Of a stretch of DNA of 27,069 nt, positions 6,226-25,953 are shown in pieces (position 1 is the stretch's first letter; every line of letters begins with the position of its first letter). The DNA lies in IMG/VR virus record IMGVR_UViG_3300018420_000085, positions 1-27,069 of that record. One strand, given 5' to 3'. The position numbers were made by a program, and so were the translations under genes. Origin of the DNA: a virus. The notes below the pieces were generated by a model that was not told where the DNA came from, made no database searches, and was given only the letters and a program-made list of their open reading frames with translations.

Positions 6226-6753
6226 TCAAACGCTTAAATTATAATGAGTTAGGACTTTATTTACTGGCTCAAAATCATCTAAATCACTAAATTTTTTGTA
6301 CAGATAATTGATACCTGTATGCATTATCACTTTCATCTGGTCGCTTTGATTTGAATGGCGATGGGAGTAGAGTACGAGTTCAAGCATATCTGCCATTTTT
6401 AATCTGTTCTTTTCTTCAGGCGATAATACAAACACTAATCCTAAATCATCCATTACTTTCTTTTCTGCATCCTCAAATGCTTTTTGCACTTCAGGATAAG
6501 ACCATTTAGCTGTAGCTGGTATATCACCAAGTATTAATTCTGGTACATCATGATACAGAGCAGCCATGATGAGTTGTTTACTACTATCAGGCCAAAGCTG
6601 GTCAATCAATATACTTACTGCGTATGAATGTGCTCCCACTGTCTGTCTCTCTGCTTGCATGGCAACTGTATGGAAGCGCAATAGAAATTGTGCATCCCAC
6701 GCTGTTGTCAAAGTTTTAATGTTCGGTATTATCTTGCATTGGCGTTGCGCCAT
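6226..6753 (-). CDS. HD-domain 5'-deoxynucleotidase (YfbR-like)
   Basis: 175 residues. The family removes phosphate from deoxynucleoside monophosphates in a metal-dependent reaction. Residues that fit: R26-F-H, H42 in GAHSYAVS, H68-D69 with E72 in YHDVPE, D77 in GDIPATAKW, and the later KMADMLELV aspartate. This is the YfbR arrangement. The ATG at 6753 has GAGGGG six bases upstream and overlaps the end of the polymerase gene by 38 bp. Together with the thymidylate-synthase homologue, it suggests that the phage manages its own nucleotide pool, perhaps removing an unwanted host nucleotide. Confidence 0.8.
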   Translation of the reverse strand: MAQRQCKIIPNIKTLTTAWDAQFLLRFHTVAMQAERQTVGAHSYAVSILIDQLWPDSSKQLIMAALYHDVPELILGDIPATAKWSYPEVQKAFEDAEKKVMDDLGLVFVLSPEEKNRLKMADMLELVLYSHRHSNQSDQMKVIMHTGINYLYKKFSDLDDFEPVNKVLTHYNLSV

Positions 6754-8635
6754 CGCTTACCCCTCTTAACCACGGTTTATCACTAAATGTCTTTTTAGCT
6801 TCACCCCAACTCGGACCAAACTCTGCATCTACTACACTTGGTATCTGCATATCAACACAATCCTGCATTATTTCTTGTATTTTCAAACCCATATCAGGTT
6901 CGGCTACCGATATATCTAATTCATCATGCACTTGTATGAGCGGTACTATCCCCTCTTTATGCAAAGCTACCATCGCTGCTTTAGTCTGGTCAGCAGCACT
7001 ACCCTGTATCAATCTGTTTAATGCTTTATATGTAAAAGAACGTTTGATAGCTGGACCATGTTCAGCATATGCATCCTCATAACTCATTGGTTTGTATGTC
7101 CCATAAGCATTAGGTTCCCACTTATTAAATCTACATTTCCTACCAAGCAGAGTGCGTATCACACCTTTATTAGATGCACGGTTGACTACATAATCTGCAA
7201 GCTGTTGGACAAAAGGAACTTTACCATGATATTCGGCAAATAAATCTTTTGCATCGCCAAACTCTAATCCTAATTGTTCAGCCAGTTTATTTTTACCCAT
7301 CCCATAAAACAGACCAAGGTTTATATCTTTAGCTTGCTTGCGTGGCACTCCTACAATATCAGCAGCCATTTGATGAAAATCTGTATTAGCATCTACATTG
7401 TATTGGTCAGCAAACTCTTGTGCGCCTGTCAGTTTTAATAGGCTGGCATAATGAACAACGAGCCGTGGTTCTTGGCTACTATAATCAAAAGCACCCCATA
7501 GTTCACCCTCTTCAGGTAAAAACAATCCGCGTATCATCGGACCTATCTCAGCATTCCGTGCTGGCACTTGTTGTAGATTAGGATTGCTGTAACTGAATCT
7601 ACCTGTCACCGTGCCACCATCATCACTGCGTAAACTGTGTGCTTCAGCATGGATACGACCATTATGCTGATGCTTTAGTATAGTATCGATAAAGGTGGTT
7701 CTAGCTTTATTCAGCTCACGAGCTCGAACCACGGCCTGAGGAAGTGCGTGGGCATGGTTGGCTAGAAAGTTTTTAGTAAAGCTAGGCTGTCCTGATTTAG
7801 GAGTTTTAGGGTATCGTAACCCCTGTGCATCAAATGCTTTAGCGATACTTGCCGCCGCCCATATATCAATATCCTGACCGCCAGCATCATGTAATACCTT
7901 TTCTTCTTCTTGTTGCAGATATACTTTTAGCTCTTCAGCTTTGCCTAAATCAACACGCACACCCTTCTTACGCATATCAAATACAACTTTGAGTACATTT
8001 AATTCTAAATCAAATATATCGGCCACATCTTCTTTGAGTATGAGACCCTTGAAGAACTGCCATAATTTCAGGGTAAGTGCCGCATCCTGTTCTGCATACG
8101 CACCGACAAAATGTGCTGGTAATTTGTACATCTCACTCTTGGCATTTACACCAAATGATTGCGCTGCATCATACAAATCACGCTCACTCTTACGTTCATT
8201 GAGATAATCTCTACCGAGAGCATTGAGTGCATAACTAAATCTGTTTTCATCAAGTAGCGCGGCTACAATCATTGTATCTACAATACGGCCTTTTACTTCT
8301 ATACCCTCAGCCCATAACCATCCAAGGTCATACATAGCATTATGCATAATGTAATCACGCTCAACAGAGCATACATCAGCTAACCAACGGAGTGTTTGTT
8401 TTACATCAAGGTTACTACCATTATCGTGTCGTATAGGAAAATACCAAGCTGCACCATCAACGGCTACTGCCACGCCAATAACATAACCATCTTTACGAGG
8501 CCATCCGCTACCACGAGATGTGAGATTAGGGTCGCATGTTTCTAAATCAATAGATACTTCCCTAGCTTCCGACAAGTCGGGATAGCCATCAGGCATGACC
8601 CACTCAGTCGGCGGTGTGAATAAGGGGAACTGCAT
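6716..8635 (-). CDS. polA: DNA polymerase I family (family A) with 3'-5' exonuclease
   Basis: 639 residues; the replicative polymerase of the phage. The exonuclease domain has DLE at 30-32, HNAMYD at 98-103 and YAEQD ending at D184, so proofreading looks intact; the 5' nuclease domain is absent, as is usual in phages. The polymerase domain has TGRFSYSNPNLQQVP (344-358), motif A DYSSQEPR (384-391), the O helix RKQAKDINLGLFYG (432-445) and motif C VHDE (569-572). The position equivalent to E. coli Phe762 is leucine (L440). AAAGG precedes the ATG, and the start lies within the end of a small zinc-ribbon gene. Confidence 0.96.
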   Translation of the reverse strand: MQFPLFTPPTEWVMPDGYPDLSEAREVSIDLETCDPNLTSRGSGWPRKDGYVIGVAVAVDGAAWYFPIRHDNGSNLDVKQTLRWLADVCSVERDYIMHNAMYDLGWLWAEGIEVKGRIVDTMIVAALLDENRFSYALNALGRDYLNERKSERDLYDAAQSFGVNAKSEMYKLPAHFVGAYAEQDAALTLKLWQFFKGLILKEDVADIFDLELNVLKVVFDMRKKGVRVDLGKAEELKVYLQQEEEKVLHDAGGQDIDIWAAASIAKAFDAQGLRYPKTPKSGQPSFTKNFLANHAHALPQAVVRARELNKARTTFIDTILKHQHNGRIHAEAHSLRSDDGGTVTGRFSYSNPNLQQVPARNAEIGPMIRGLFLPEEGELWGAFDYSSQEPRLVVHYASLLKLTGAQEFADQYNVDANTDFHQMAADIVGVPRKQAKDINLGLFYGMGKNKLAEQLGLEFGDAKDLFAEYHGKVPFVQQLADYVVNRASNKGVIRTLLGRKCRFNKWEPNAYGTYKPMSYEDAYAEHGPAIKRSFTYKALNRLIQGSAADQTKAAMVALHKEGIVPLIQVHDELDISVAEPDMGLKIQEIMQDCVDMQIPSVVDAEFGPSWGEAKKTFSDKPWLRGVSDGATPMQDNTEH

Positions 8636-8777
8636 CTCTTACCTTTATCTTCATAGGTTGATTACATTTAGAACAATGAGGCCATTTATTTTTAAGAGCA
8701 CGGAAGGTCATAACTTTACTTTCCCTTCCGCACTCACACTCAGCCAATACTTCTTTATCTAGCTTTTCGTTTGCCAT
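8604..8777 (-). CDS. Small zinc-ribbon protein, 57 residues
   Basis: MANEKLDKEVLAECECG has a CxC knuckle (C14, C16), and WPHCSKCNQ has CxxC (C35, C38); together they could form one zinc site. The ORF overlaps the end of the DUF1599-like gene by 23 bp and the start of the polymerase by 32 bp. A weak GAG lies before the ATG. The paired cysteines and the exact fill of an otherwise empty gap support it. Its role near the polymerase is unknown. Confidence 0.7.
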   Translation of the reverse strand: MANEKLDKEVLAECECGRESKVMTFRALKNKWPHCSKCNQPMKIKVRDAVPLIHTAD

Positions 8778-9168
8778 TTTGTCTCATGCGTACTTCAGCT
8801 TCAACTAAAAACAAATATCTACGCAGGTCACTAATATCATCAAGGATACCTTCCTCACGCATATCTTCAGCCGCCGCTTGGAATACATCATAATTATATT
8901 CGGTTACTTGTTTTTCAAGCCGATCCCATTTACGAGCCAGCATCATAAATGCACCAACACCGCCACGTTGTTTCCAGCTATCACCATAAGATTGTTCAGC
9001 TTCTTCTAACTTTACATGATCTAGTACGGTGAGCTTACCAACTTGTTTTATGATAGGGCTTTGTTCTTTAGGTTCTGTCTCTTTATCTTTTACCATTATA
9101 TCATACTCTCCCCAATCTAACTCACGCATACGACGTTTCATGTATTGTTCGTGACTTTCTCTTGCCAT
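8755..9168 (-). CDS. DUF1599 / MazG-like protein (nucleotide-modification-associated type)
   Basis: 137 residues. The N-terminal 50 residues are polar. The core has EEAEQSYGDSWKQRGGVGAF, RKWDRLEKQV, then GILDDISDLRRYLFLVEAEV near the C-terminus. This helical E-x-x-YGDSW ... KxDRLE ... DDxxDL pattern is that of DUF1599, also called nucleotide modification associated domain 1, and resembles MazG-type folds. A role in modified-nucleotide metabolism is inferred from family and neighbours. It overlaps the thymidylate-synthase homologue by 31 bp, indicating coupled translation. Confidence 0.7.
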   Translation of the reverse strand: MARESHEQYMKRRMRELDWGEYDIMVKDKETEPKEQSPIIKQVGKLTVLDHVKLEEAEQSYGDSWKQRGGVGAFMMLARKWDRLEKQVTEYNYDVFQAAAEDMREEGILDDISDLRRYLFLVEAEVRMRQNGKRKAR

Positions 9169-10166
9169 TTTTCTCTCCTACGCTCAAGCCATTCCCAAGT
9201 GGCTAAATGCCAATCATCAGGCTTTATGTCTGCACAATGGTCAAAAGCTAAAGCTAATTCTTTAGCTTTCCATGCTTGCCAGACTTTGTGCATAGGTTGT
9301 GCCAAATCAGAAAAAGTGGAGTTAATATATGGTCTTGGTTTTTCAGGGTCTTCCATAAACCAACCAAGCTCTTCGTCAAATGATTCTATATTATTTACAA
9401 GAGCATCTGGCCTGATCATGCGTGTATTGTATGATTCATAATCAGCAACCATACCATCTAACTTTTTTAATACTTCTGTATAAGCGTGGAGGTTATTACT
9501 AAACTGTGTATAGATACCAACACTCGCGCCGATACGTGAGGCTATATACTCTTGAAGAATGGACATATGGACAGCATTAGCTCCCAATGCACCCCAGATC
9601 ATATCATTACTGCGATTGCATACTGTCATATCAAGTATATTATCACGCACACTAAAATAGATATGAGTATTGCAGGGATGATCTTTACAGCTATTACTCA
9701 TGCGTAAATCTTCTTCAGCATCCCACATTGCAAGCACTGCTCGTCTATCATTTGCATGTGTCATCAATCTGTGAACGATTATATCAATCTGGTCTTGGTA
9801 GAAATAATTACGCCAACGATATCCGTAAGCTCCCTGTAATTTTTTACCATCATCGCTGTACTCACTCATCCGTGCATTATAACGCTGTATCCATGCAAGA
9901 TCATTACGCCCTGCTAACATCCACAGGCTTTCCATAAAATGAAATATAGGATTAGCATCACGCTCAGGGTAAAACAGTACACGCTCTCGTGGGTTGTTGT
10001 AGACAATAGCGCATGGTTCACGGAACTCAATCGCTTTACCATTGCGAGTTTCTACTTCTACACCATCTGCTTCTAATGCTTGCTTCACAACGTACAGTGC
10101 TTCGCTTACATTTGTGACTGTAAAAGTATGCACACCCCTCATAGGTGCTTTACCAAATAGTGCCAT
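9138..10166 (-). CDS. Thymidylate synthase homologue (possibly dUMP hydroxymethylase)
   Basis: 342 residues. The ThyA family transfers a one-carbon unit to C5 of dUMP or dCMP. Visible features: ESLWMLAGRNDLAWIQRYN (79-97), GAYGYRWR (112-119), nucleophilic Cys165 in HPCNTH, NRSND (184-188) in place of QRSxD, an Asn in GALGAN (N197) expected for uracil selection, and LHAY (226-229). The C-terminus lacks the canonical ThyA tail, and the usual His after the catalytic Cys is Asn, so it is a divergent member. Next to a 5-hmdU kinase-type gene it may make hydroxymethyl-dUMP rather than dTMP. GGCGG precedes the ATG. Confidence 0.85.
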   Translation of the reverse strand: MALFGKAPMRGVHTFTVTNVSEALYVVKQALEADGVEVETRNGKAIEFREPCAIVYNNPRERVLFYPERDANPIFHFMESLWMLAGRNDLAWIQRYNARMSEYSDDGKKLQGAYGYRWRNYFYQDQIDIIVHRLMTHANDRRAVLAMWDAEEDLRMSNSCKDHPCNTHIYFSVRDNILDMTVCNRSNDMIWGALGANAVHMSILQEYIASRIGASVGIYTQFSNNLHAYTEVLKKLDGMVADYESYNTRMIRPDALVNNIESFDEELGWFMEDPEKPRPYINSTFSDLAQPMHKVWQAWKAKELALAFDHCADIKPDDWHLATWEWLERRREKWQEKVTNNT

Positions 10167-10190
10167 ATTGAACCGCCTTTCTATGGGGTT

Positions 10191-10210
10191 ATAAAGCCGC
10201 TCGAGCGGCT
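10191..10210 (-). terminator. Perfect GC-rich hairpin followed by TTTAT
   Basis: AGCCGC and GCGGCT flank TCGA at 10195-10210, and TTTAT follows on the minus strand. It lies in the 101-bp gap between the radical SAM gene and the thymidylate-synthase homologue. The T run is short, so this may be a weak terminator or attenuator. The rest of the gap shows nothing else clear. Confidence 0.5.
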
Positions 10211-10267
10211 GAAGTTAACTTGCCCTAGTATGCCAGCAAAAGCAACCTTCTAACGGCTGTAGGGGCT

Positions 10268-11269
10268 TTAAATAAAGTCATAATGTTTCTTTACTCTTTT
10301 TGTGTATGTGCCTCCACCCAATGCCTCTCTAATTGCAGTATTTGTTTCCTCCGTAGGCTCGGGTAACGTCTTACGTCCCATACGGTCAGGTAACAATCCA
10401 TTACGCAGAGTGGTATTATCGCAGCCATTGCAAGGACCGAAGTCACGCTGTCCGTGATACAACTTTTGTCGTGCCGCATGAAAAGCCTCTCCCTGCCATA
10501 TTTCATCTATAGGTGTATCAATAACATTGCCACACTTATACCATCCTACCCAATCATTACAGCATACCGCAACATTACCATCCCAACGTATAGACATCTC
10601 ACGGAAAGGTTTTGCACAACGCTTACCATCTTGTTTATGGTTTAGAGGGAAAGAGTTACCAGCGTGGTTACTGACTTGTGCGTGGGTTCCGCTAGTAGCG
10701 AGCGTAAGATCAAGTCCAACAACGATATGATGCTCTGTAACCTTTCTTCGTCGGTGGGGGTTGGCGTCACGTTCAGCGGGATATTCAAATACGGGATATG
10801 GACCATTGTATCTCTCCTTTATTTTGTCCACTATTTTTATGCGATCATAATTGTCAAGGAATAAAACATTTAGCCCTGCTTCCATCAACATATTTACACT
10901 TTTCTGTGTATCTCTTAATAGACCACCACCATTACTGGTCATCATCAAAGGTGTTTTAGGTAACTCTTGTCTGAACAACCGTATCATATCAATGAAGAAA
11001 GGGTGCATAGTAGGCTCACCATGCATGGCAAACTCTAACCGTGGGTTCCATCCAGCTTCTTTAATACGGCTACAGATAGCCCTAGCCCTTTCTATTGTTA
11101 AATATCTATAAGGGGCAGAAGCCTTACCATGAATATTTAATGGACCGTGGGCTTTATTATCACGTATCGCTTGTATACCGCAAAACGAACAAGCAAGGTT
11201 ACATCCCTCAGTTAATTCTATCTGTATAGAATTAGGTGGGTCTTGGTAATAGTTAGATACAGTTTCCAT
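10268..11269 (-). CDS. Radical SAM enzyme with SPASM-type C-terminal domain
   Basis: 333 residues from the ATG at 11269 (AAAGG nine bases upstream); an in-frame ATG at 11302 lies deeper in the previous gene. The cluster motif CNLACSFC (C23, C27, C30) binds the 4Fe-4S cluster that cleaves S-adenosylmethionine. A GEPTMHP segment fits the SAM-binding GxE region. The C-terminal part has further cysteines: CAKPF, VAVCCNDW, YKCGN and PCNGCDN, the pattern of SPASM auxiliary clusters. The substrate is unknown. It overlaps the glycosyltransferase gene by 17 bp, so a joint role in base modification is inferred. Confidence 0.85.
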   Translation of the reverse strand: METVSNYYQDPPNSIQIELTEGCNLACSFCGIQAIRDNKAHGPLNIHGKASAPYRYLTIERARAICSRIKEAGWNPRLEFAMHGEPTMHPFFIDMIRLFRQELPKTPLMMTSNGGGLLRDTQKSVNMLMEAGLNVLFLDNYDRIKIVDKIKERYNGPYPVFEYPAERDANPHRRRKVTEHHIVVGLDLTLATSGTHAQVSNHAGNSFPLNHKQDGKRCAKPFREMSIRWDGNVAVCCNDWVGWYKCGNVIDTPIDEIWQGEAFHAARQKLYHGQRDFGPCNGCDNTTLRNGLLPDRMGRKTLPEPTEETNTAIREALGGGTYTKRVKKHYDFI

Positions 11270-12038
11270 CTTTAGCGGCCTTTCGCCATTGTACGCGGAC
11301 ATCCCAACGTGTTTTCATACCATCCCAACCAGTCTTAGTTTGCTTTTGTACAGCTTTCACATAATCAGGAAACTTTTCAGCAAGGGCTAGGCTGGCTTGT
11401 TCTTGTAGTTCAGCATTACGGTAAGAACTACACCCTCCTGCCGCACCAGAAGCACCACGCTGATCCCATGTCCAATCTACAATAACATAATTAGGATAGC
11501 CCTTACTGAACAGGCTGAGGGTTACATAGTAATCTTCCATCAGCTGCATTGTATCGTACCGTATATTTTCTTTATGCAGAACTTTTGGCTGTATCCCATG
11601 CACAGCATTTTGGCGCATACCTTCTTTGAATTCATGGGGGAAATGTTTATCATTCATCTGCCTTGGGCTAACACCCACATGAACATATGAATCTAACATC
11701 TTACTCATGCGCTCCCATAACTCATGCATTTCTTCCTGATTTGTTTTTCTTAAGTTGGGAGCCAACCCATGTATGCGGCGACCAAATATAAGATCATCAT
11801 CCAGAATAATAATTTTATCATGCTTCTGCTCCACGGCATGTTCTAATATGAACTGCCTTACATTATTGATGCCTTTTAAATCACCACGGTTTAAACAATA
11901 GCGACCTTGTTTAGTGTGCCAATTTACTTCTTCTTGTGGGCATACAAGAACGGCATGTTCTCTGCCCTCCGGACCAATGCTTTGCCAAGTAACTTGGTTA
12001 TTCATCCTGCCCCTAGTTGGAATATATATCGGTATCAT
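11253..12038 (-). CDS. GT-A-like glycosyltransferase (resembles TET-associated family)
   Basis: 261 residues. MIPIYIPTRGR opens a nucleotide-sugar-binding fold. IIILDDDLIF supplies the metal-binding DDD at 80-82, MEDYYVTL (167-174) is a likely catalytic acidic motif, and GGCSSYR (201-207) and VQWRKA near the C-terminus are conserved-looking. The arrangement resembles the TET-associated glycosyltransferase (TAGT) family described from phage base-modification clusters; that match is from memory. It would add a sugar to a modified pyrimidine in DNA or nucleotide. The ATG overlaps the previous stop (ATGA), with GAGG seven bases upstream. Confidence 0.75.
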   Translation of the reverse strand: MIPIYIPTRGRMNNQVTWQSIGPEGREHAVLVCPQEEVNWHTKQGRYCLNRGDLKGINNVRQFILEHAVEQKHDKIIILDDDLIFGRRIHGLAPNLRKTNQEEMHELWERMSKMLDSYVHVGVSPRQMNDKHFPHEFKEGMRQNAVHGIQPKVLHKENIRYDTMQLMEDYYVTLSLFSKGYPNYVIVDWTWDQRGASGAAGGCSSYRNAELQEQASLALAEKFPDYVKAVQKQTKTGWDGMKTRWDVRVQWRKAAKDGNCI

Positions 12039-12328
12039 AGTTCATCCTCATCAAATCGTACTTGCCCTTCAAGCACTGCTCTTTCTAATTCTTCATCAGT
12101 CATGTTGTCAAGCTCAAACATTGTTGGTTTTCTTTTGGGCTTTAACACTCGTTTTCTGGTTTTGGGTTTTGGCTCTGGCTTCGGTTTCGGCGGCTCTTGC
12201 GGCTCTAATTGTTCCAATGTCCGATAATTGTATTTGCATTTCGGACAGTTCCTCTTCCTCCGTATCGTGCCTTGATAAGGACGACTGTCTACGACCTCGG
12301 ATTTGCCATTGCATTTTGGACACAACAT
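12035..12328 (-). CDS. NrdR-like zinc-ribbon protein without ATP-cone
   Basis: 97 residues. The N-terminal 40 residues, MLCPKCNGKSEVVDSRPYQG then IRRKRNCPKCKYNYRTLE, match the zinc ribbon of NrdR (two CPxC knuckles, a V-x-DSR motif and basic residues). NrdR normally continues with an ATP-cone that senses nucleotides; here it is replaced by a Pro/Lys-rich linker (PPKPKPEPKPKTRKR) and an acidic helix (NMTDEELERAVLEG). It may be a DNA-binding or adaptor protein, not a true ribonucleotide reductase regulator. It lies inside the modification cluster. Confidence 0.75.
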   Translation of the reverse strand: MLCPKCNGKSEVVDSRPYQGTIRRKRNCPKCKYNYRTLEQLEPQEPPKPKPEPKPKTRKRVLKPKRKPTMFELDNMTDEELERAVLEGQVRFDEDEL

Positions 12329-12330
12329 AA

Positions 12331-13227
12331 TTACGCCACCGTCCCAACTGGAGCCTCCAGCACTGAGCTCTGTAGTCCATTATACTTACTACGCGGAGTG
12401 CCTTGACCAAGCCTAACGCGCTCATATTTATCCCACTCGCATAAGCTGTGTTCAATACAGCGCATATCCACTGCCAAAGTCGGGATATGTTTGCCAAGAT
12501 AACGGTGTGAATTTTCGAGTAAATCTTGCATCTCCCTATTACTTTGATAAGCACCTAATGCTTTTGTGAGCGGCCTATCGTGGATCCTGTTGAGGCCGCG
12601 CTTTGCTCCTGGACCAGCGTTTGCCCATTTGTATTTATCTTCGGCTTTAGCAAGGACTGGTGTGTAGTTGAGGTCTGTGACAACCTCGTATGACATAAAA
12701 CCTCCCCCACCCCATCCTTTATACGTCGCCAATGCTTTGTGTACTTCTTCCAGCGATTGCGTGTCGGCGGCAATCTGCGCCAACGCTTCTCTGTTCTCCC
12801 ATATTGGCGAAAGGAAGTGGTCAACAACTACCTCCGATTTAGGTGCTTTGAGTCCTTGGTTAGTGATTATATATGCACCAGTAAAAGTCCGTAAACCCTG
12901 CTTCAACCTTTCTTCAATCAAAGATTTAGTACGCTCAGGATTAAACTCTTCCACCCAACCGTGCGCCTCAGCAAACTCACTAGTGCCAACCATACGAAAC
13001 ATACAACAGTTAAATATCATCTCACCATGTGGGCGGTTATCATTTGGCTTTGTCCAGTTTTGCCGCATCCAAACAGTTACCCTATCATTCTCACGGAAGG
13101 GGTTTGTGAATTTATATTGTTGTAGGATAGTATCCTCTGTCCAAGGGGCAGGAAGCCCCTTGGCTCTTTTTTGATAAATAGCGTGACGCTCATTAATCCA
13201 GTAGCAGAACCTTTCTATGTTCTCCAT
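12331..13227 (-). CDS. 5-hmdU DNA kinase helical-domain / alpha-glutamyl-putrescinyl-thymine pyrophosphorylase family protein
   Basis: 298 residues, all-helical. The conserved blocks are clear: FCYWINERHAIYQKR (7-21) with GLPAPWT (24-30) and YKFTNPFRENDRVT (38-51); then TFTGAYI (114-120), a glycine-rich turn (171-176), WANAGPGAKRGLNR (201-214) and EHSLCEWDKYERVRLGQG (259-276). This is the HMUDK-helical family, known from phages whose hydroxymethyl-dU in DNA is phosphorylated and converted to hypermodified thymidines. No P-loop kinase domain is fused here. AGGAG is seven bases before the ATG. It heads the presumed modification cassette. Confidence 0.85.
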   Translation of the reverse strand: MENIERFCYWINERHAIYQKRAKGLPAPWTEDTILQQYKFTNPFRENDRVTVWMRQNWTKPNDNRPHGEMIFNCCMFRMVGTSEFAEAHGWVEEFNPERTKSLIEERLKQGLRTFTGAYIITNQGLKAPKSEVVVDHFLSPIWENREALAQIAADTQSLEEVHKALATYKGWGGGGFMSYEVVTDLNYTPVLAKAEDKYKWANAGPGAKRGLNRIHDRPLTKALGAYQSNREMQDLLENSHRYLGKHIPTLAVDMRCIEHSLCEWDKYERVRLGQGTPRSKYNGLQSSVLEAPVGTVA

Positions 13228-13229
13228 AA

Positions 13230-13847
13230 TTATTCTCCTAGCTTGATAGCACCTTTTTCAATAGCAAGGCGAATATCAACACTATTGCCTCCTGGAGTTA
13301 AAGCCTTCATAGCGGCTAGAGCTTCGCCCACAGTAGCTGATTTAACCAAGGCTTCAAAATTATGCCAACGATTACTACCCTCACGGTAAGGGTTTTGGTA
13401 CACGCCAGAAGCACCAGCTTGTACAAGAATCTTAGCATTTGAATCATATTTAGATTTTGCCACACGCTTTGGCTTTTCTGTAGCAACAGCCTCAATACCC
13501 TGTGGTTCAGGCGTAATATCTACTATTTCAGCAGTCATTTGTTTCTCCTTTGAAACAGGTTTATATTTTCTAGCTCGCTCATGTACAAACTCTGCAAAGT
13601 TTTTATGGAAGCTAGGATAATTTGGTAAGGCACACTCACCAACTGTAGCGGCAACTACACTCCGCAACTCTTCCTCACTGTAGGTATCTTGTAATTGTTG
13701 AACTTCAGCAAACACAATACTATACTCGTTAAGTTCTTTACACGCTTTCAACTCACGCAAGGATTTGAATACAAAGTAAGAATACGGATCATTACGGTTA
13801 CTGTTATTATCATTTTCTAGCACCGCATAAGTTTTGATAGCTGCCAT
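13230..13847 (-). CDS. Hypothetical two-part phage protein, 205 residues
   Basis: The N-terminal 90 residues form one region (KTYAVLENDNN onward), followed by a polar linker rich in Pro and Lys. A C-terminal region of about 65 residues has QNPYREGSNRWHNFEALV, TVGEALAAM and VDIRLAIEKGAIKL, which looks like a small helical domain found in other phage proteins, possibly DNA-binding. GGAGG lies five bases upstream, within a CCATAGAAAGGAGG leader. It is first after a promoter-like motif and immediately precedes the hmdU-kinase-family gene. Confidence 0.7.
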   Translation of the reverse strand: MAAIKTYAVLENDNNSNRNDPYSYFVFKSLRELKACKELNEYSIVFAEVQQLQDTYSEEELRSVVAATVGECALPNYPSFHKNFAEFVHERARKYKPVSKEKQMTAEIVDITPEPQGIEAVATEKPKRVAKSKYDSNAKILVQAGASGVYQNPYREGSNRWHNFEALVKSATVGEALAAMKALTPGGNSVDIRLAIEKGAIKLGE

Positions 13848-13902: not shown

Positions 13903-13923
13903 AAGCAAGCACTAAATACTCCA

Positions 13924-13957
13924 ATGCCCCACTAAAAGTTCTCTTTTAGCAGGGCAT
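13924..13957 (-). terminator. 15-bp hairpin after the DUF932 gene
   Basis: On the minus strand ATGCCCTGCTAAAAG pairs with CTTTTAGTGGGGCAT (two G-T pairs) around AGAA. It lies between the DUF932 stop and a promoter-like site. No T run follows, so it may act as an mRNA end or processing and stability structure instead of a standard intrinsic terminator. Confidence 0.5.
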
Positions 13958-13992
13958 CGGGCGAGAGGTGAGCTTCTGCCCACCCCCACATC

Positions 13993-18528: not shown

Positions 18529-19332
18529 TTAAAACGGCACATCATCATCGCCGCTATCATCTTGTTGAGAGGTGCTTGGCTCAGGTGCAGTTTCCTTTAC
18601 CTCAACTTCGCCAGCTTTTACTGATTTAGCAAAAGCAACTGCCATCTCAAAAATATTAGCTTCCTCAGCATCACCAAGACTAATCGGACCGATCTTAGCA
18701 ATATCCCAACCAAACCAATTACCTTTATCATTGCTTTCAGCAACAGTGGTCATTTGGTATTTATGAGACATCATAGGTAAAGTGTACGGACCGTTTTTAC
18801 CTTGAGCAGTGAGTGCTTGCATTTGTGTCACCCACTTACGCGCCTTCTTTAACTGTGTGCTAGACATAGTAATCAGGCAACGCTGTGGACCATCACTATC
18901 AAGTAGGATTACGAAAAACTGCGCTGTATTTGTAAGAATATTACCATTAGGCAATATATCTTCACCGCGCTCATTTTTAGTAGTGGTATTGACAATAGGG
19001 TCATCAGGATTGTATGAACCAAAATATCCACCACCTTTTTCCCTAGGAGCCCACTCAACATACCGACGGTTATAATAGCATGGCACAACTGTCACACCCT
19101 TTTCACCATCGTATACTTTATTAGCTACCGTATTGAACATCATGCCAGCTTCAGCACCTTCTACATACGCACCATCACGCTTATTTACCTGAGGACTGAG
19201 CTGTGCAAGTATCCGTAGAAACGGTACTGCCATATCTTGGGATGTGGTTTCTTCAAAACCCAACCCGCCAATATCTTCAAACTGTGCTACTGCTACAGCA
19301 GAAGACTCTTTCTTAGCTACTTCTGTTGCCAT
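18529..19332 (-). CDS. Putative single-stranded DNA-binding protein
   Basis: 267 residues. The N-terminus is polar, followed by a beta-rich core (VPFLRILAQLSPQVNKRDGAY, GVTVVPCYYNRRYVEWAP, AQFFVILLDSDGPQRCLITM). The C-terminus ends in an acidic tail, DDSGDDDVPF, the hallmark of SSB tails that recruit partner proteins. It is not an obvious OB-fold Ssb by sequence and resembles divergent phage SSB-type proteins. It is followed by a strong terminator before the primase. A promoter-like motif lies upstream, inside the previous gene. The SSB role is inferred mainly from the tail and context. Confidence 0.75.
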   Translation of the reverse strand: MATEVAKKESSAVAVAQFEDIGGLGFEETTSQDMAVPFLRILAQLSPQVNKRDGAYVEGAEAGMMFNTVANKVYDGEKGVTVVPCYYNRRYVEWAPREKGGGYFGSYNPDDPIVNTTTKNERGEDILPNGNILTNTAQFFVILLDSDGPQRCLITMSSTQLKKARKWVTQMQALTAQGKNGPYTLPMMSHKYQMTTVAESNDKGNWFGWDIAKIGPISLGDAEEANIFEMAVAFAKSVKAGEVEVKETAPEPSTSQQDDSGDDDVPF

Positions 19333-19334
19333 AT

Positions 19335-19877
19335 CTACCTCCGTATTTTGGCTCGCTGCCCCACGAATATACCCAACAGGTCATACGGCAAATTCTCACC
19401 TTTTTCTACCTGTTCCTTTACAAAAGACTTGAGTGTCATGGGTTCAACCCAAGTTTTTGTCTGCGTTTGCAAACCGCGCTGTCCTAGCTCGGCAAGCAAA
19501 TCTTTGGCAAGGTTATCCTCACCGCGACCAAAAGCCGCTGTGACATGATTCTTAATTAGCGAACCATGCCCTGCCGCAGTAAGCCACTGAAAGGCTTCCT
19601 CAGCTCGGTCTTTGGCAATGCTGGCACTATAATAAGGTGTGACACTAATTTCACTGCCATCGTCCATTTTGAGTTCAGTAACACCATGCTCTTGTAACGC
19701 AGCCGGAAGTAAATCTTCCGATACTTTACGCAACTCACGCTTGGTTTCCTTTAACTCTAACTCAAGATCAGCGACACGTTGTTCCAACGTAATCTGTTGC
19801 TTACATAGGTTACTAACAGTGCTGATACCCGATTGATTTATGCTGGTTAGGTCTCCAGCTACACTTTCAAAGTCCAT
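19335..19877 (-). CDS. Coiled-coil protein beside SSB, unknown function
   Basis: 180 residues. Residues about 27-56 (QQITLEQRVADLELELKET and onward) form a likely coiled coil. Then come an LLPAALQEHGV turn, a DDGSEISVTPYYSASI strand pair and a helical C-terminal half with LKSFVKEQVEK. Proteins with this arrangement appear next to SSB genes in other phages, which suggests a replication or recombination partner; this is from memory. GGAAGGAG lies seven bases upstream, and the start overlaps the preceding gene. Confidence 0.75.
   Translation of the reverse strand: MDFESVAGDLTSINQSGISTVSNLCKQQITLEQRVADLELELKETKRELRKVSEDLLPAALQEHGVTELKMDDGSEISVTPYYSASIAKDRAEEAFQWLTAAGHGSLIKNHVTAAFGRGEDNLAKDLLAELGQRGLQTQTKTWVEPMTLKSFVKEQVEKGENLPYDLLGIFVGQRAKIRR
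19625..19642 (-). promoter_or_regulatory. Promoter-like motif TCACACCTTATTATAGTG inside a gene
   Basis: It lies within the coiled-coil gene (codons for VTPYYSA) and shares TCACACCTTATTAT exactly with the intergenic sites at 1629 and 3364. The SSB-like gene starts about 290 bp downstream. It may be an internal promoter that boosts SSB expression, or a coincidence of coding sequence. Confidence 0.35.
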
Positions 19878-20199
19878 TACTAGACTCCTTCCTATGGTAT
19901 AGATCTACTTCCAATGGATAGTAGCGTTCCTCTAGCCTATCCCACTTCAATGCTTTGAACTTACCCATATTCAGGCGAGCTGCTTCTGCACAAGCAATGC
20001 CTATGCATAAGGGGTCTCCTGATAGTAGTAAGTAATCATTATCATTAAAGTTACGAAGGCCACGAGCAATCCTACGAACCGTTGGCTGAGTGCTGAATGA
20101 AACCTGTTCCTTGGCCGGAACAAGTATCTGCAAATCACCAAAGGCAACTGCATCTGTGATATCTCTACCACGCACTTCTTGTGTTATGTAGACTGTCAC
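19867..20199 (-). CDS. Conserved phage protein, 110 residues
   Basis: GTG start at 20199 with GGAG nine bases upstream; begins VTVYITQEVRGRDITDAVAF. The segment LRNFNDNDYLLLSGDPLCIG, then IACAEAARLNMGKFKALKWD, is reminiscent of small conserved proteins from many phages near SSB and polymerase genes. Function unknown. It is the first minus-strand gene of the replication block and is divergent from the SNF2 helicase. On the minus strand, CCCCTATATATAAAAG about 70 bp upstream could be its promoter. Confidence 0.75.
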   Translation of the reverse strand: MTVYITQEVRGRDITDAVAFGDLQILVPAKEQVSFSTQPTVRRIARGLRNFNDNDYLLLSGDPLCIGIACAEAARLNMGKFKALKWDRLEERYYPLEVDLYHRKESSNGL

Positions 20200-20336: not shown

Positions 20337-20459
20337 GGTTTTATTCTTTTACAAATACTTACTTTGAGCCCCTACGCGAGATATAACAAGAACATAAAAC
20401 GGTATACAGGATTTTGTTTCTTGTGCTATTATACAAAGTACCCAATAGAAAGCGGTGTC

Positions 20460-21896
20460 ATGCGTTACAAATTTAAATACCAGCCATACGAGCATCAGCT
20501 CGAGGCTTTGAAAATGTCTTGGAATAAGAAAGAATTTGCTTACTTCATGGATATGGGGACGGGCAAATCAAAAGTTCTTATTGATAATATGTGTGTCCTC
20601 TACGACCGTGGAGAGATTACTGGTGCATTGATCGTTGCCCCTAAAGGTGTATACCGAAACTGGGAGCAAGGCGAACTGCCCACGCATATTCCTGAACATG
20701 TTATGTACGATACAGTATTGTGGAATCCTAGCCAGACAAAAACACAATTAGAAAAACAAAAAAAGTTATATCAGGTAGATGATAACCTTAAAATATTTGT
20801 TATGAATGTAGAAGCCTTTAGCACTAAGAAAGGTTGTGGTGAGGCTGAGCGTTTTTTAAATGCACATCAATCACTTATGGCTATTGATGAAAGCACTACT
20901 ATAAAAAATAAAGATGCTAAACGCACTAAGAGTATTGTAAAGATAGGTAAATCGGCTCACTACAGACGTATACTTACAGGCTCACCAGTAACTAAAAGCC
21001 CAATGGATTTATACACTCAAGCAGAGTTTCTTGATGAATGGTTATTGGGACATAGCAGCTATTTCAGTTTCCAATATGAGTATGCCATTGTGCAACGCCG
21101 TAGTATGGGAGCGCATAGTTTTAATCAAGTAGTGGGCTATCGTAATCTGGATAAGCTAAATGGTATTCTTGAGAACTTTAGTTTTAGAGTTAAAAAGGAG
21201 GATTGTTTGGATTTACCAGATAAAGTTTACATTAAGCGTAGTGTAGAACTTACTGATGAACAAAAGTCTGTTTACAGTAGTTTAAAGACATTTGCTTTAG
21301 CAATGCTTGAAGAAGGTTCGGTAACTACTGATACTATCCTTACACAATTACTCAGGCTGCAACAGGTATGCTCAGGCCATGTAAAACTTGATGATGGTGA
21401 AATGAAAACATTTAACTCAGCTAAATTGCCAGAACTAATGTCTGTGCTTGAGGAAGTAGATGGTAAAGTAATTATATGGGCTAACTTCACTCATGATATA
21501 AAAACTATTGAACAAGAAATATCAAGAGTGTATGGTGCAGATTCTGTAGCTACCTATTATGGTGAAACAGAGAGTGATGATCGGCAAGCTATTGTCAACC
21601 GTTTCCAAGATCCTGATGACCCCCTTATGTATTTTGTAGGCCAGCCACGGACAGGTGGCTATGGTTTAACACTGACAGAAGCTAAGACAGTGGTGTACTA
21701 CAGTAATAATTTTGACCTTGAAATACGGTTGCAAAGTGAGGATAGAGCACACCGCATTGGACAAACAAGTAAAGTTACTTATATAGATATTGTAGCAGAT
21801 AAAACTGTAGATGACCGTATTCTCAAAGCCTTACGGAATAAAATTAATATAGCGAGCCAAGTGCTTGCCGAAGATTTTAGAGAATGGATAGTGTAA
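20460..21896 (+). CDS. SNF2-type (superfamily 2) DNA helicase or translocase
   Basis: 478 residues from the ATG at 20460; an upstream in-frame TTG at 20364 adds 32 residues with no conserved character. The Q-like QPYEHQLEAL comes first, then Walker A MGTGKSK (32-38), motif Ia VAPKGVYRNW, Walker B DEST (143-146), motif III LTGSP (172-176), VIIWANFTHD in the second lobe and motif VI QSEDRAHRIGQ near the end. It would remodel DNA-protein complexes or branched DNA; small phage SNF2 proteins of this kind are common. It is the only gene on the plus strand, has its own promoter-like motif, and its 3' end overlaps a convergent gene by 20 bp. Confidence 0.93.
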   Translation: MRYKFKYQPYEHQLEALKMSWNKKEFAYFMDMGTGKSKVLIDNMCVLYDRGEITGALIVAPKGVYRNWEQGELPTHIPEHVMYDTVLWNPSQTKTQLEKQKKLYQVDDNLKIFVMNVEAFSTKKGCGEAERFLNAHQSLMAIDESTTIKNKDAKRTKSIVKIGKSAHYRRILTGSPVTKSPMDLYTQAEFLDEWLLGHSSYFSFQYEYAIVQRRSMGAHSFNQVVGYRNLDKLNGILENFSFRVKKEDCLDLPDKVYIKRSVELTDEQKSVYSSLKTFALAMLEEGSVTTDTILTQLLRLQQVCSGHVKLDDGEMKTFNSAKLPELMSVLEEVDGKVIIWANFTHDIKTIEQEISRVYGADSVATYYGETESDDRQAIVNRFQDPDDPLMYFVGQPRTGGYGLTLTEAKTVVYYSNNFDLEIRLQSEDRAHRIGQTSKVTYIDIVADKTVDDRILKALRNKINIASQVLAEDFREWIV

Positions 21897-22393: not shown

Positions 22394-22834
22394 TCATACT
22401 GCCCTCATCCTTTGAACCAACCGTTCGGCACGATTGGTTACTTGTCTATACCACTTTGAGTCAACCATCTCATCTGCTGCTTGTTGCCAATCACGTGCAT
22501 CGACACCAGCTTTCATACCTTTGAATTTACTCAAACGCGGATAGCCCATATTGAACATCATATTTGCTATTATTAGTTGCACTTCTTCTGGTAAGGAATC
22601 AAAGTCGGGGTACAATCGTTCACAATCTTCGAGGACTGTTCCAACATCTGTATTAAAGCACTCTGCGACTCTATCTGCTGTGATAGTTGTTCCGACTGGT
22701 TGGTTATATTCTTCGTCAGCTTCAGTGACCAAGTGACCAATCCCAAAAGTAGGCAGACCCAAATGATCCAAGTATATTTCATACTTACACCCCTCATCTG
22801 CTTCAATTTGTTCTCGTAATACTGCAAGATCCAT
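22394..22834 (-). CDS. T4-type lysozyme (glycoside hydrolase 24 endolysin)
   Basis: 146 residues. It cleaves the glycan chain of peptidoglycan for host lysis. Residues equivalent to the T4 E-D-T triad are present: E14 in EADEGCKY, D23 in YLDHLG and T29 in PTFGIGHL. The C-terminal lobe has NMMFNMG..RLSKFKGM and a final basic RAERLVQRMR region. The length is near T4 lysozyme (164). There is no signal peptide or N-terminal membrane anchor, so export would need a holin. GAGG lies about nine bases upstream, and the ATG overlaps the previous stop (TAATG). Confidence 0.92.
   Translation of the reverse strand: MDLAVLREQIEADEGCKYEIYLDHLGLPTFGIGHLVTEADEEYNQPVGTTITADRVAECFNTDVGTVLEDCERLYPDFDSLPEEVQLIIANMMFNMGYPRLSKFKGMKAGVDARDWQQAADEMVDSKWYRQVTNRAERLVQRMRAV
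22573..22782 (-). CDS. Possible nested membrane protein inside the lysozyme gene (spanin- or holin-like)
   Basis: In another frame of the lysozyme gene, an ATG at 22782 with GAGGGG seven bases upstream opens 69 codons. The product begins MKYTWIIWVCLLLGLVTWSL, a convincing single membrane helix, followed by a Gln/Ser-rich, heptad-like segment (NITNQSEQLSQQIESQSALI) and a short tail. This is the topology of an inner-membrane spanin subunit or a one-helix holin. The GAGGGG also encodes the conserved DEG of lysozyme, so it could be coincidental. No separate spanin or holin gene is obvious nearby. Confidence 0.4.
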   Translation of the reverse strand: MKYTWIIWVCLLLGLVTWSLKLTKNITNQSEQLSQQIESQSALIQMLEQSSKIVNDCTPTLIPYQKKCN

Positions 22835-25800
22835 TACACTAAACCTCGGATACCTTGGTTACGACGATTTGCTATAGCACCACCTAACTCATCTTGCGGA
22901 AATAAATTAGCAAAATTAGTAATACCTGTTCCCATTGCTGGGCTTGGTGATGGTTGTATTTGTGGTAAATTCATACTTGGCATAGGAGCAGCAGGAGGTG
23001 GTGCGCTCACTACTTGTGTAGGTGTGGGTGCAGGGGGAGTAGCAACAGCGGCAAACTCATCACCCATTTCAGGTGGTTGTCCTGTGCGCTCAACTTCTTC
23101 TAAAGGTGTTTCTATATCTTCACTAAAACTCTCACCCAGCTGATTTAGTATATTAGAATAAACACTTGCGCTTCTTTTATTCCAAGTTCTTTTAACTGCA
23201 CCTTTAAAACCCTCACCCTGATAACCATGAATTTTTTTAAGTTGACGTACAGAGGGTGGAGTTGCAAAAATATATGCTAAAAGATCATTAGTTACGAGTG
23301 TTCTATAAGCACCTATATCTAATCTAGATAAACCAGCCCTTACAGCTCCTGCTTGCATCGGACCACCGACATCTGGTTTATAACTCGCTAAAAAGGCCGA
23401 ATAAGTTCTCATATCTAATAGATCTTGTAGATATGGTGAACCCTTTGCATCATATATAGGGTTATCTCCTTTTAATGATGACCCTATAAATAAAGGTTTT
23501 AATCTTGCATAATCTCCAGAAAAATTACCTAACTTATTTAAGGCTTCTGCCATAGGTATAGGATTTACAACATTTAATGCTTGCTCATCAAAAGTACTGT
23601 TATTATCTAATATTTTCTTGAATACTGCTGCTCGCATATCCATGGCGACTTTGCCATCTATGCCACCATTCCTGCCTATGAACTCTATTAACTCGGCCTC
23701 ACCCATATTGTCAATAGCTAGTAAAGCTCTTTCGCCTACTGTCAACCTACGTTTTACAGTGGACTGTATGCCACTATTTTGCACCCAACTCGTCGCTTGC
23801 GCTAACTCTTCTAAAGCCGCACGATCAGCTGCATTGGGGACCATTTTGGCAAATAAATCACCATCTGCATCCATAATTTGACGTATACGTTCTTGTGTTT
23901 TTGCAGGGTTTTGATACAGCCATGTAATGAAACCGTCCTGAACATCTGCAATTAATTGTTGCGCGGCGATTTTTGCTTCGGGTTTATTACCAGCAGCATT
24001 TTGCGACATTTTGGTAAAGAAATCCCAATCTTTAGATGTAAATTCACCTTGCCAAAATTTTTGCGCTAACTCATTTGGCATGACTTCTGATTTACGAGAA
24101 AACATACTAGCAATATTAGAAGCATTAAGTGTATCAGCTTTAAGTTTAGCTAATGTTTTTGCCTCATCATAAAAAGTTAAAAACTCTTTACTGCCGCCTC
24201 TGGGGTTATTTAAAACTTGATCTATTGCTTCTACTAATTCTCTACCAGCTTTACTATCATCTGTTTGTATTAGTTTACTTGCCCTATCCCTTAAAGCCTT
24301 CAACTGTTTCAATGAGTCAAATGCTGTTTTTGCATTTGTTTTACCATCTTTTACTACAAGTTTAGAAACATTAGGATCAATAATATTAATGAGAGCATTG
24401 GTTATTGCTTGCAGCTCACCACTTAACTCACCTTCAGCCCGAGTAGTAGGGGCTGCGGTTTGTCTGCCTTGCGCGTCAATAGGTCTTCCTATACTATCTG
24501 TGCGTGGTGGACGCGTCCGTATCTGCGTGCCTTGTTGTATTCTTTGTGCAACTTTAACCGCTGGAGTCAGATCAAAAACAACATTTTGAGATCCAGCTGT
24601 ATTAAAGGCTTTTTGATATGCTGCATCAATAAGTTCATTATGAGATGTTTGTAAATCACCAGCTAGTTTTCTTATATTTTGTTCAAGTTGTTCTAAACTC
24701 ATATTATCAGGCAGTTTGCCACCAAAACGAGCTGTCAGTATTTTATAAATTTCTTCTTGTATTGCTTCTTGCTGAAGTTTTGTGTAGGTACTCAGCTCCT
24801 TAGCGTTGAATGAATCGAAATTACTTTCAGCTTTTCTTTTTAATCTTTCATACAATTTACGTTGTTGATTATTAAGTAAACGTCCGGGGATATTAGATGT
24901 ACCAGCCGTTTGTGAAAAAGTGCCGCGCACCACATTACTATCTGCTAGTTGTGCTGCACTAAAAAGAGGCAAACCTAATCGCTCCGCTGCCTCTTGCGCG
25001 ACTAATGCTCTTGGACCAGTTTTACGAGCTAGTACAGAACCACCTACATCACCCGTACCAAGTGCTTGCCTAAATTTATTACCAGCTCCAGGAAGGAATT
25101 TTGTTATAAGTCCATCAACGAGTCCAATAGTTGCAGCATCACCAACACTTAATTTTTCCATCAGTTCTGCTTGAGACATAGAAGTCTCATCAAGGATAGC
25201 TTGATCAACAAGATTACCTAAAGTAGCTCCTGCAAATGTCCCGAAAAAAGGCGCAAATATTGTCCCTATTAAACTTCCCGCAGTTGTGTAATTTAAGACA
25301 TTACCAGTAAAACTAGCGACCTCATTACTTACATCATTAAGACCTGTAGGGTCAACATTGAACACATCACCCTCTGGTGTGATACTGTAAACTTCTGAAA
25401 ATTTGCCACCACCTGTGGGTATACGAGCATATTTACCATCAGGGTAATGTTTTTTGAAATATGCTTCACGGTCAGCAAATGTACCAGTCATACGCCTACG
25501 AGCTAAACCATCCGATACACTAAAACTCATAGGACCGACAGATTTACCACCTTGGTATTTGCCGCCGACAGCTTCTCCAACGACTTGGTCAATACGCATA
25601 AGTTCTACATTCAAGAACTCATTAAACTCGTCCATTGCTTGTGCATCGCGAGCACCAGCTATATTGATATCTAAAGGTTGGAACTCATTAGGGTCAGGTT
25701 CACCAAGTCCTATTGCCTGTAAATCTTGCTGTATTTGTGCTTCCATAGCGGCAGCATCAAGATCATCATCTGGACCTGTAGCGACAAACTCATCTGCTGA

Positions 25801-25953
25801 AAAAGGTGTAAACCTTGCACCTCCAGGAGTAAACTCTAGGTCAGGTGCTGCATCAGGTTGAGGTTGTTCAACTCTTGGAATATTGAGAGTCTGCGCTGTA
25901 GTAGCTCCAGTGGCCGAAGCACCAACACGCGGGATGGTTAAAGTTTGTGCCAT
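22834..25953 (-). CDS. Large putative internal virion protein
   Basis: 1039 residues. The N-terminus repeats AQTLTIPRV and AQTLNIPRV at the start, then an acidic region. Around residues 205-255 a Gly/Ala-rich hydrophobic stretch (AGSLIGTIFAPFFGTFAGAT) could insert into membrane. A long helical middle follows, then a Pro-rich C-terminal linker (TPPAPTPTQVV) and a final LFPQDELGGAIANRRNQG. The size, composition and position beside lysozyme suit an internal (ejected) or tail-associated virion protein of a podovirus-like phage. No enzymatic motif is seen. Only a weak AGG precedes the ATG. Confidence 0.65.
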   Translation of the reverse strand: MAQTLTIPRVGASATGATTAQTLNIPRVEQPQPDAAPDLEFTPGGARFTPFSADEFVATGPDDDLDAAAMEAQIQQDLQAIGLGEPDPNEFQPLDINIAGARDAQAMDEFNEFLNVELMRIDQVVGEAVGGKYQGGKSVGPMSFSVSDGLARRRMTGTFADREAYFKKHYPDGKYARIPTGGGKFSEVYSITPEGDVFNVDPTGLNDVSNEVASFTGNVLNYTTAGSLIGTIFAPFFGTFAGATLGNLVDQAILDETSMSQAELMEKLSVGDAATIGLVDGLITKFLPGAGNKFRQALGTGDVGGSVLARKTGPRALVAQEAAERLGLPLFSAAQLADSNVVRGTFSQTAGTSNIPGRLLNNQQRKLYERLKRKAESNFDSFNAKELSTYTKLQQEAIQEEIYKILTARFGGKLPDNMSLEQLEQNIRKLAGDLQTSHNELIDAAYQKAFNTAGSQNVVFDLTPAVKVAQRIQQGTQIRTRPPRTDSIGRPIDAQGRQTAAPTTRAEGELSGELQAITNALINIIDPNVSKLVVKDGKTNAKTAFDSLKQLKALRDRASKLIQTDDSKAGRELVEAIDQVLNNPRGGSKEFLTFYDEAKTLAKLKADTLNASNIASMFSRKSEVMPNELAQKFWQGEFTSKDWDFFTKMSQNAAGNKPEAKIAAQQLIADVQDGFITWLYQNPAKTQERIRQIMDADGDLFAKMVPNAADRAALEELAQATSWVQNSGIQSTVKRRLTVGERALLAIDNMGEAELIEFIGRNGGIDGKVAMDMRAAVFKKILDNNSTFDEQALNVVNPIPMAEALNKLGNFSGDYARLKPLFIGSSLKGDNPIYDAKGSPYLQDLLDMRTYSAFLASYKPDVGGPMQAGAVRAGLSRLDIGAYRTLVTNDLLAYIFATPPSVRQLKKIHGYQGEGFKGAVKRTWNKRSASVYSNILNQLGESFSEDIETPLEEVERTGQPPEMGDEFAAVATPPAPTPTQVVSAPPPAAPMPSMNLPQIQPSPSPAMGTGITNFANLFPQDELGGAIANRRNQGIRGLV

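Follow-up and report, generated by a model that had tools for sequence, protein, structure and literature searches.

A conserved phage gene cassette proposed to glycosylate 5-hydroxymethyl-deoxyuridine in DNA without a kinase

How could a phage build a hypermodified thymine from a gene set in which the helical domain of a DNA-base kinase stands without its kinase, next to a glycosyltransferase and a radical SAM enzyme? The question is raised by a run of genes in IMG/VR record IMGVR_UViG_3300018420_000085, a marine phage contig of 27,069 bases that is classed as linear and is probably a fragment; this whole stretch is called the window here. A preliminary description had placed six open reading frames (ORFs) in one direction at 8755-13227 and read them as a candidate thymidine hypermodification cassette. 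All six are found there, on the - strand, and recomputed spacing bears out the reported 101-bp gap before the synthase gene and the overlaps or tiny gaps elsewhere: 2 bp from HMUDK_hel to zinc ribbon, overlaps of 4 bp from zinc ribbon to TAGT and of 50 bp from TAGT to the radical SAM gene, 101 bp from there to the synthase, and an overlap of 31 bp between the synthase and a 137-amino-acid gene. Sequence comparison indicates that this gene run is a real, widely conserved DNA-modification cassette and that a thymidine-type DNA base modification in this phage is well supported. We propose, at what we judge to be an even chance, that the cassette makes glycosylated 5-hydroxymethyl-deoxyuridine (5-hmdU) in phage DNA by a kinase-free route and that the sugar is then edited by the radical SAM enzyme; the phage would thus probably replace some thymines with a sugar-bearing base. 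The genes of the run are as follows.

12331..13227, - strand: HMUDK_hel (aGPT-Pplase1) protein of 298 amino acids, without a kinase domain (PF18723, E 4e-52)
12035..12328, - strand: NrdR-type zinc ribbon of 97 amino acids with four Cys (PF22811, E 1e-10)
11253..12038, - strand: TAGT-family GT-A glycosyltransferase of 261 amino acids (PF20691, E 2e-15; phrog_842, E 2e-46)
10268..11302, - strand: radical SAM enzyme with a Twitch domain, BtrN-like (PF04055, E 1e-8; PF13186 (SPASM), E 7e-13)
9138..10166, - strand: thymidylate-synthase homologue, predicted dUMP hydroxymethylase (PF00303, E 2e-20; phrog_5131, E 3e-104)
8755..9168, - strand: conserved gene of 137 amino acids that overlaps the synthase; function not assigned

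Five of the family assignments made earlier hold by Pfam, namely HMUDK_hel, the NrdR-type zinc ribbon, TAGT, radical SAM and the thymidylate-synthase homologue. The sixth, a "DUF1599-like" label for the 137-amino-acid protein, is dropped: the protein has no Pfam match even at E 1, PHROGs gave no more than weak matches, so that DUF1599 (nucleotide modification associated domain 1) has no support, and a relative (L209) had no Pfam match at E 0.05.

The HMUDK_hel protein matches PF18723 with 177.7 bits against a curated cut-off of 25, and the gene that had been called a kinase encodes the helical domain only, with no P-loop. It had been expected to activate 5-hmdU by phosphorylation, as an HMUDK-family enzyme. 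That expectation is not supported, given the missing P-loop and the absence of the neighboring P-loop kinase that M6, Pam3, Ab18 and Sonora possess. The kinase family PF18748 was absent from the window and from all 84 related virus records searched (43 + 41), with M6, Sonora and Pam3 scoring above the cut-off as controls and Ab18 below it. Since Ab18 shows that the Pfam kinase model can be weak, we built a profile of our own from four kinases and ran it, unfiltered, over all ORFs of at least 60 amino acids in five relatives of 57-69 kb, together with a P-loop motif scan. No kinase was found by this profile in the five relatives, whose only convincing P-loop ATPase is a UvrD-type helicase; they lack an exact terminal repeat, so that their completeness is likely rather than proven, and named complete relatives span 57.6-61.5 kb. 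The amino acid:DNA transferase (ADDT; PF18724) was above cut-off in none of 45 related records, with two weak matches, at least one of them in an HMUDK_hel ORF; in the window it produced only a weak touch (E 0.11) within HMUDK_hel. A 205-amino-acid protein encoded just upstream was considered as a hidden kinase and rejected, having neither a P-loop nor a kinase profile match.

Kinase-type activation is also opposed by the company that HMUDK_hel keeps, as no locus examined has both a kinase and a glycosyltransferase. Of 228 loci, 181 combine HMUDK_hel with a glycosyltransferase but lack a kinase, 9 combine it with a kinase but lack a glycosyltransferase, 13 have HMUDK_hel with neither and none has it with both. 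These HMUDK_hel, TAGT and radical SAM loci were fetched by similarity to the window and include some near-copies, so the counts show exclusivity rather than population frequency; the kinase and glycosyltransferase loci of HMUDK_hel are, within them, two mutually exclusive kinds. The same holds from the other genes. Clustering the radical SAM enzyme at 60% identity yielded 24 groups, with the synthase in 22, HMUDK_hel in 19, TAGT in 20 and either TAGT or a GT-B enzyme in 22; one further group (L174) has a weakly recognized GT-B protein, and a kinase or ADDT occurs in none of the 24. Among 43 distant TAGT loci picked irrespective of the radical SAM gene, HMUDK_hel is present in 31 and the synthase too in 30, with a kinase in none. 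In 50 further HMUDK_hel loci we observe TAGT in 32, a GT-B enzyme in 5 and a kinase in 1. A quick HMUDK_hel tree, rough and with long branches, requires at least 36 changes of partner label and at least 12 of glycosyltransferase type, which indicates that the partners of HMUDK_hel have been exchanged repeatedly. In addition, a GTDB scan gave 6 matches in metagenome-assembled genomes, 4 of them with a kinase, and indicated no firm host.

The identity of the base is addressed by the synthase, which has the catalytic C165 and a uracil-type N197. Of the 77 sequences aligned, 75 have Asn at the base-specificity position, those of the window, M6 and the SPO1 dUMP hydroxymethylase among them; only T4 gp42 and MilA, both cytosine enzymes, differ, with Asp there or at an adjacent position. 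A hydroxymethylcytosine in place of a uracil base is ruled out by this test, and the uracil-type Asn leads us to expect a dU derivative. The signature RSND..WG..GAN is of the SPO1 gp29 type and not that of ThyA; the sequence leaves room for either hydroxymethyl-dUMP, the predicted product, or dTMP. The thymidine-type modification proposed in the preliminary description is thereby upheld, by a uracil-type synthase found with HMUDK_hel and a DNA-modification glycosyltransferase family beside a DNA polymerase and a 5'-nucleotidase.

The TAGT protein scores 57.6 bits on PF20691 (cut-off, 27.5), and phrog_842 bears the annotation "beta-glucosyl-HMC-alpha-glucosyltransferase". It has an Asp-Asp-Asp at 80-82, a DxD-type motif in which D80-D82 is invariant among 25 diverse members, and is predicted from sequence to transfer a sugar to a hydroxymethylpyrimidine in DNA. 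Its neighbor had been described as a SPASM radical SAM enzyme. The radical SAM assignment and the PF13186 match stand, but the Cys pattern, CxxxCxxC (C34, C38, C41) with auxiliary C229, C247, C291 and C294, fits a one-cluster Twitch domain rather than a full two-cluster SPASM domain. Compared with solved proteins, its profile matches BtrN at E 5e-22 and the next at 1e-5. The predicted model is of low confidence (predicted local distance difference test [pLDDT] score, 64); its top structural match is again BtrN (E 2e-8), to which it is 16% identical in the structural alignment, followed by anSME, with DesII and SpeY lower. DesII acts on a nucleotide sugar, and SpeY is a dehydrogenase that acts on an aminocyclitol. 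BtrN, the 2-deoxy-scyllo-inosamine dehydrogenase, oxidizes an aminocyclitol at a secondary alcohol and, like the window enzyme, joins a radical SAM domain to one four-Cys auxiliary cluster (PMC9012708). As the best match in both sequence and structure, it suggests that the window enzyme may oxidize a secondary alcohol, although BtrN belongs to antibiotic biosynthesis and its own substrate is a free aminocyclitol (PMC9012708). We also considered an M6-type radical SAM enzyme and rejected it, the window protein having no similarity to the M6 radical SAM protein beyond chance.

That sugar transfer might be combined with radical chemistry was suggested earlier for this phage, and the combination turns out to be conserved far beyond it. 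The gene order recurs in more than 30 related contigs, and many distant contigs share the gene set, so the arrangement is not a matter of chance. In near relatives we observe a nearly constant frame, in the order DUF932, 205-amino-acid gene, HMUDK_hel, slot, synthase, 137-amino-acid gene, PolA and HD. The slot holds zinc ribbon, TAGT and radical SAM genes, or TAGT and radical SAM, or a GT-B glycosyltransferase; the zinc ribbon occupies its position there only in nearer relatives. The GT-B enzymes are of two types, one of about 430 amino acids (Pfam Glycos_transf_1 near cut-off) and one of about 330 amino acids without a Pfam match, which align with each other at E 7e-9, and in L092 an FkbM methyltransferase follows the slot enzyme. 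A scan with a radical SAM alignment recovered relatives that are about 40% identical and whose contigs, 5-178 kb long, differ in polymerase and have their genes in shuffled order; TAGT, HMUDK_hel and the synthase are retained in most of them.

Two kinds of locus depart from this pattern. In L196:8458-11374 a GT-B glycosyltransferase, the radical SAM enzyme and a TET/JBP oxygenase lie in a row, the synthase and HMUDK_hel were not found in this locus, and the source of the hydroxymethyl group may be TET in place of the synthase. The pair of radical SAM enzyme and glycosyltransferase is thus kept while base-side enzymes change, from which we infer that the substrate is the sugar or the sugar donor. 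In L216-L219 (L216:8386-11556), where no HMUDK_hel or synthase was found, TAGT, an unidentified 260-amino-acid protein, the same radical SAM family and an APS kinase (PF01583, E 2e-57) lie in a row, a set that possibly makes a sulfated sugar.

Three further observations concern the composition of these loci. L298, L299 and L204 each have two TAGT and two radical SAM genes, with HMUDK_hel and the synthase in L204 and without both in L298 and L299; a disaccharide or a two-step editing is possible. In L339-L343, about 1 kb between HMUDK_hel and the synthase matches no known slot enzyme and could represent a further slot type. A protein at L176:9196-10023, with no Pfam or PHROG match, recurs near the cassette in L182, L198, L199 and L210 (27-44% identical).

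In HMUDK_hel, residues R14, R45, D48, R78, K130, D185, D197, E264 and K267 are invariant in 30 diverse members, and so many invariant charged residues make the protein probably active or DNA binding rather than a remnant. A search of BFVD with its predicted model (pLDDT 90) returned the stand-alone HMUDK_hel proteins of PhiW-14 and RSL1, the SP10 kinase and an amino acid:DNA transferase (E 5e-4), along with a weak match to endonuclease III. ADDT profiles touch it weakly, and an hhalign comparison of HMUDK_hel with ADDT is weak also. Foldseek against the PDB gave no significant match; among the matches listed, the DNA glycosylases EndoIII-3 and MagIII had the highest probability, only 0.12-0.14 (E 3-4), and a glycosylase-like fold is a lead only. 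Solved structures likewise gave no significant match for HMUDK_hel, TAGT or the slot GT-B enzyme without a Pfam match. We propose HMUDK_hel as a candidate subunit for binding 5-hmdU DNA, for base flipping or for group transfer. Its distribution would be best explained if it were a base-flipping module able to work for a kinase or for a glycosyltransferase, with a transferase role of its own as the main rival.

In the pathway that we propose, the first step is well supported by sequence: the synthase homologue would turn dUMP into 5-hydroxymethyl-dUMP, which the polymerase would incorporate after further phosphorylation, and the HD nucleotidase may lower dTMP or keep it out of the pool. The second step follows gene association. 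HMUDK_hel, freed of the P-loop kinase that is its partner in M6-like phages, would recognize and probably flip out 5-hmdU in DNA, and TAGT would put a sugar directly on the hydroxymethyl oxygen, with no phosphorylation. In the third, suggested by homology and pairing, the BtrN-like radical SAM enzyme would abstract hydrogen at one of the carbinol carbons of the sugar and oxidize or epimerize that sugar, and the edited sugar would be foreign to restriction or glycosidase defenses. The zinc ribbon would be an accessory, and the slot between HMUDK_hel and the synthase would hold interchangeable glycosyltransferase modules in sister phages. Extended to the other phages, the proposal becomes more tentative and falls somewhat short of an even chance: a widespread kinase-free branch, with HMUDK_hel as a general 5-hmdU-DNA handling subunit that pairs with a kinase or a glycosyltransferase, and with the radical SAM enzyme oxidizing or epimerizing the DNA-attached sugar.

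Several points weigh against this pathway. By analogy with its relatives, TAGT may add a second sugar and not the first; a kinase may come from the host; the linear environmental contigs may be no more than fragments; SPASM/Twitch enzymes act on peptides too; and the low pLDDT of the radical SAM model leaves its substrate class resting on homology and pairing. In addition, HMUDK_hel is related to amino acid:DNA transferases and may transfer a group before the sugar. This last point opens a different account, in which HMUDK_hel makes the first transfer to 5-hmdU, of an unspecified group, TAGT glycosylates that group, and the radical SAM enzyme rearranges the linker instead of the sugar. The weak profile and structural relation to ADDT and the many invariant charged residues are consistent with it, as is the different radical SAM gene in the M6 thymidine cassette (PMC9476957). 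No linker-supply gene such as a pyridoxal phosphate (PLP) enzyme or amino acid transferase is seen, however, the radical SAM enzyme is nearest to BtrN and unlike that of M6, and its pairing with a glycosyltransferase is also found without HMUDK_hel, so that we regard this account as unlikely, if a serious candidate. A smaller departure would keep glycosylated 5-hmdU as proposed and let the radical SAM enzyme make or edit a nucleotide-sugar donor before transfer, which DesII among its structural matches and its constancy beside the glycosyltransferase as base-side enzymes vary would both allow. Yet SpeY, another of those matches, acts on an aminocyclitol. So does BtrN, the nearest match (PMC9012708), and no other nucleotide-sugar gene is present in the cassette or among the families listed for neighbor genes; we consider donor editing rather improbable.

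A known pathway of the M6 or ViI type, with the kinase elsewhere in the genome or borrowed from the host, would account for HMUDK_hel and for a synthase of the M6 kind. It is very improbable given PF18748 in none of the 84 related records, five of 57-69 kb having been searched by other means too, the lack of ADDT, and the mutual exclusion of kinase and glycosyltransferase. We give slightly less credence still to a division of the cassette in which only the synthase and HMUDK_hel concern DNA while the target of the glycosyltransferase and radical SAM enzyme is a surface glycan or a small molecule. In its favor, glycosyltransferases that act on surface sugars do occur in phages, and the TAGT and radical SAM genes of L216 are followed by an APS kinase gene. 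Against this, TAGT belongs to a DNA-modification glycosyltransferase family (PMC13390438) and is fixed beside HMUDK_hel and the synthase in phages with different polymerases, and the families listed for neighbor genes have mostly replication, nucleotide and nuclease functions.

Compared with known systems, the proposed kinase-free glycosylation cassette combines familiar parts. M6 DNA contains 5-aminoethyl-dU (PMC6449724), and the neighboring genes in M6 encode ADDT, a PLP enzyme, a radical SAM enzyme, the P-loop kinase (PF18748), HMUDK_hel (PF18723), Nmad5 and the synthase; its sister phage SN1 has the same kind of cassette (PMC9476957), and in Pam3, Ab18 and Sonora the kinase is paired with HMUDK_hel. 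The window shares with M6, Pam3 and SN1 a uracil-type synthase, HMUDK_hel, a radical SAM gene, an HD nucleotidase and DNA polymerase A in one cluster (PMC9476957), but lacks the P-loop kinase, ADDT, PLP enzyme and Nmad5, has a glycosyltransferase, and has a radical SAM enzyme of another family. Pelagiphages, to whose lineage the window polymerase is nearest, share the core trio of genes next to DNA polymerase A and constitute partial prior art (PMC9599517). No radical SAM enzyme was reported for them, and in the passages on the cassette the authors suggest no more than a broadened function and do not comment on the absence of the kinase. In T6-like phages TAGT is thought to extend glucosyl-5-hydroxymethylcytosine (PMC13390438). 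The window protein is of the same family (PF20691/phrog_842) as these and the TET-linked TAGTs but, unlike them, is tied to HMUDK_hel, with a uracil-type synthase and not a dCMP hydroxymethylase as partner and with no TET.

There is chemical precedent for a sugar-bearing thymine-derived base in DNA. Base J of kinetoplastids is a glycosylated thymine derivative, made by a synthesis that differs from the window gene set. Phage SP-15 has a dihydroxypentyluracil with glucose (PMC5977210) and YerA41 a large thymidine adduct (PMC9023294); the published gene set of SP-15 differs from that of the window, and the adduct and genes of YerA41 are not yet defined. In the literature we found no report of this gene combination, though Iyer 2013, Lee 2018 or Lee 2022 may contain an earlier mention. 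What is probably new here is a thymidine hypermodification in which glycosylation would replace phosphorylation, with a radical SAM enzyme that probably acts on the sugar.

Because HMUDK_hel is usually found with a glycosyltransferase and without a kinase in the environmental phages examined, its role must be rethought, and the annotation "5-hmdU DNA kinase, helical domain" changes meaning. Under the proposal, thymines that bear sugars, made with swappable sugar enzymes, should form a class of bases in marine and other phages. Such bases could shield DNA from restriction and CRISPR and distort the sequencing of native virus DNA, and the cassette could supply new DNA-labeling enzymes. The three interchangeable glycosyltransferase slots offer a natural experiment on the role of each part, and the third step, if true, would be a radical editing of a DNA-borne sugar.

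The cassette is flanked by the following features.

13921..13960, - strand: 18-pair, terminator-like hairpin between the DUF932 gene and the cassette gene run (consensus scan only)
13230..13847, - strand: 205-amino-acid protein, first gene of the run, 2 bp before HMUDK_hel; function not assigned
6716..8635, - strand: family A DNA polymerase (PF00476, E 6e-58)
6226..6753, - strand: HD-domain YfbR-like 5'-deoxynucleotidase (PF12917, E 2e-9; phrog_6047, E 6e-35)

The hairpin is a possible upstream transcription boundary of the run, and most near relatives retain the 205-amino-acid gene upstream of HMUDK_hel. A Z-genome (2-aminoadenine) polymerase was considered and rejected: the window polymerase scores 338 bits on the DpoZ model NF038380 against a cut-off of 500, and as the polymerases of M6, Pam3 and HTVC027P score 266-333, this is no sign of aminoadenine DNA. 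Elsewhere in the window, a search for known RNAs returned only a tRNA-Trp gene (CCA anticodon) at 547-620. An SNF2-type helicase at 20364-21896 is the sole large gene on the + strand, the rest of the contig being on the - strand. Three consecutive genes at 18529-20199 match the gp34, gp33 and gp32 families of cyanophage Pam3, though the Pam3 cassette is of the kinase type. Finally, a 1,039-amino-acid protein at 22834-25953, with no confident Pfam match, adjoins a lysozyme and may be a virion protein that is co-injected with the DNA.

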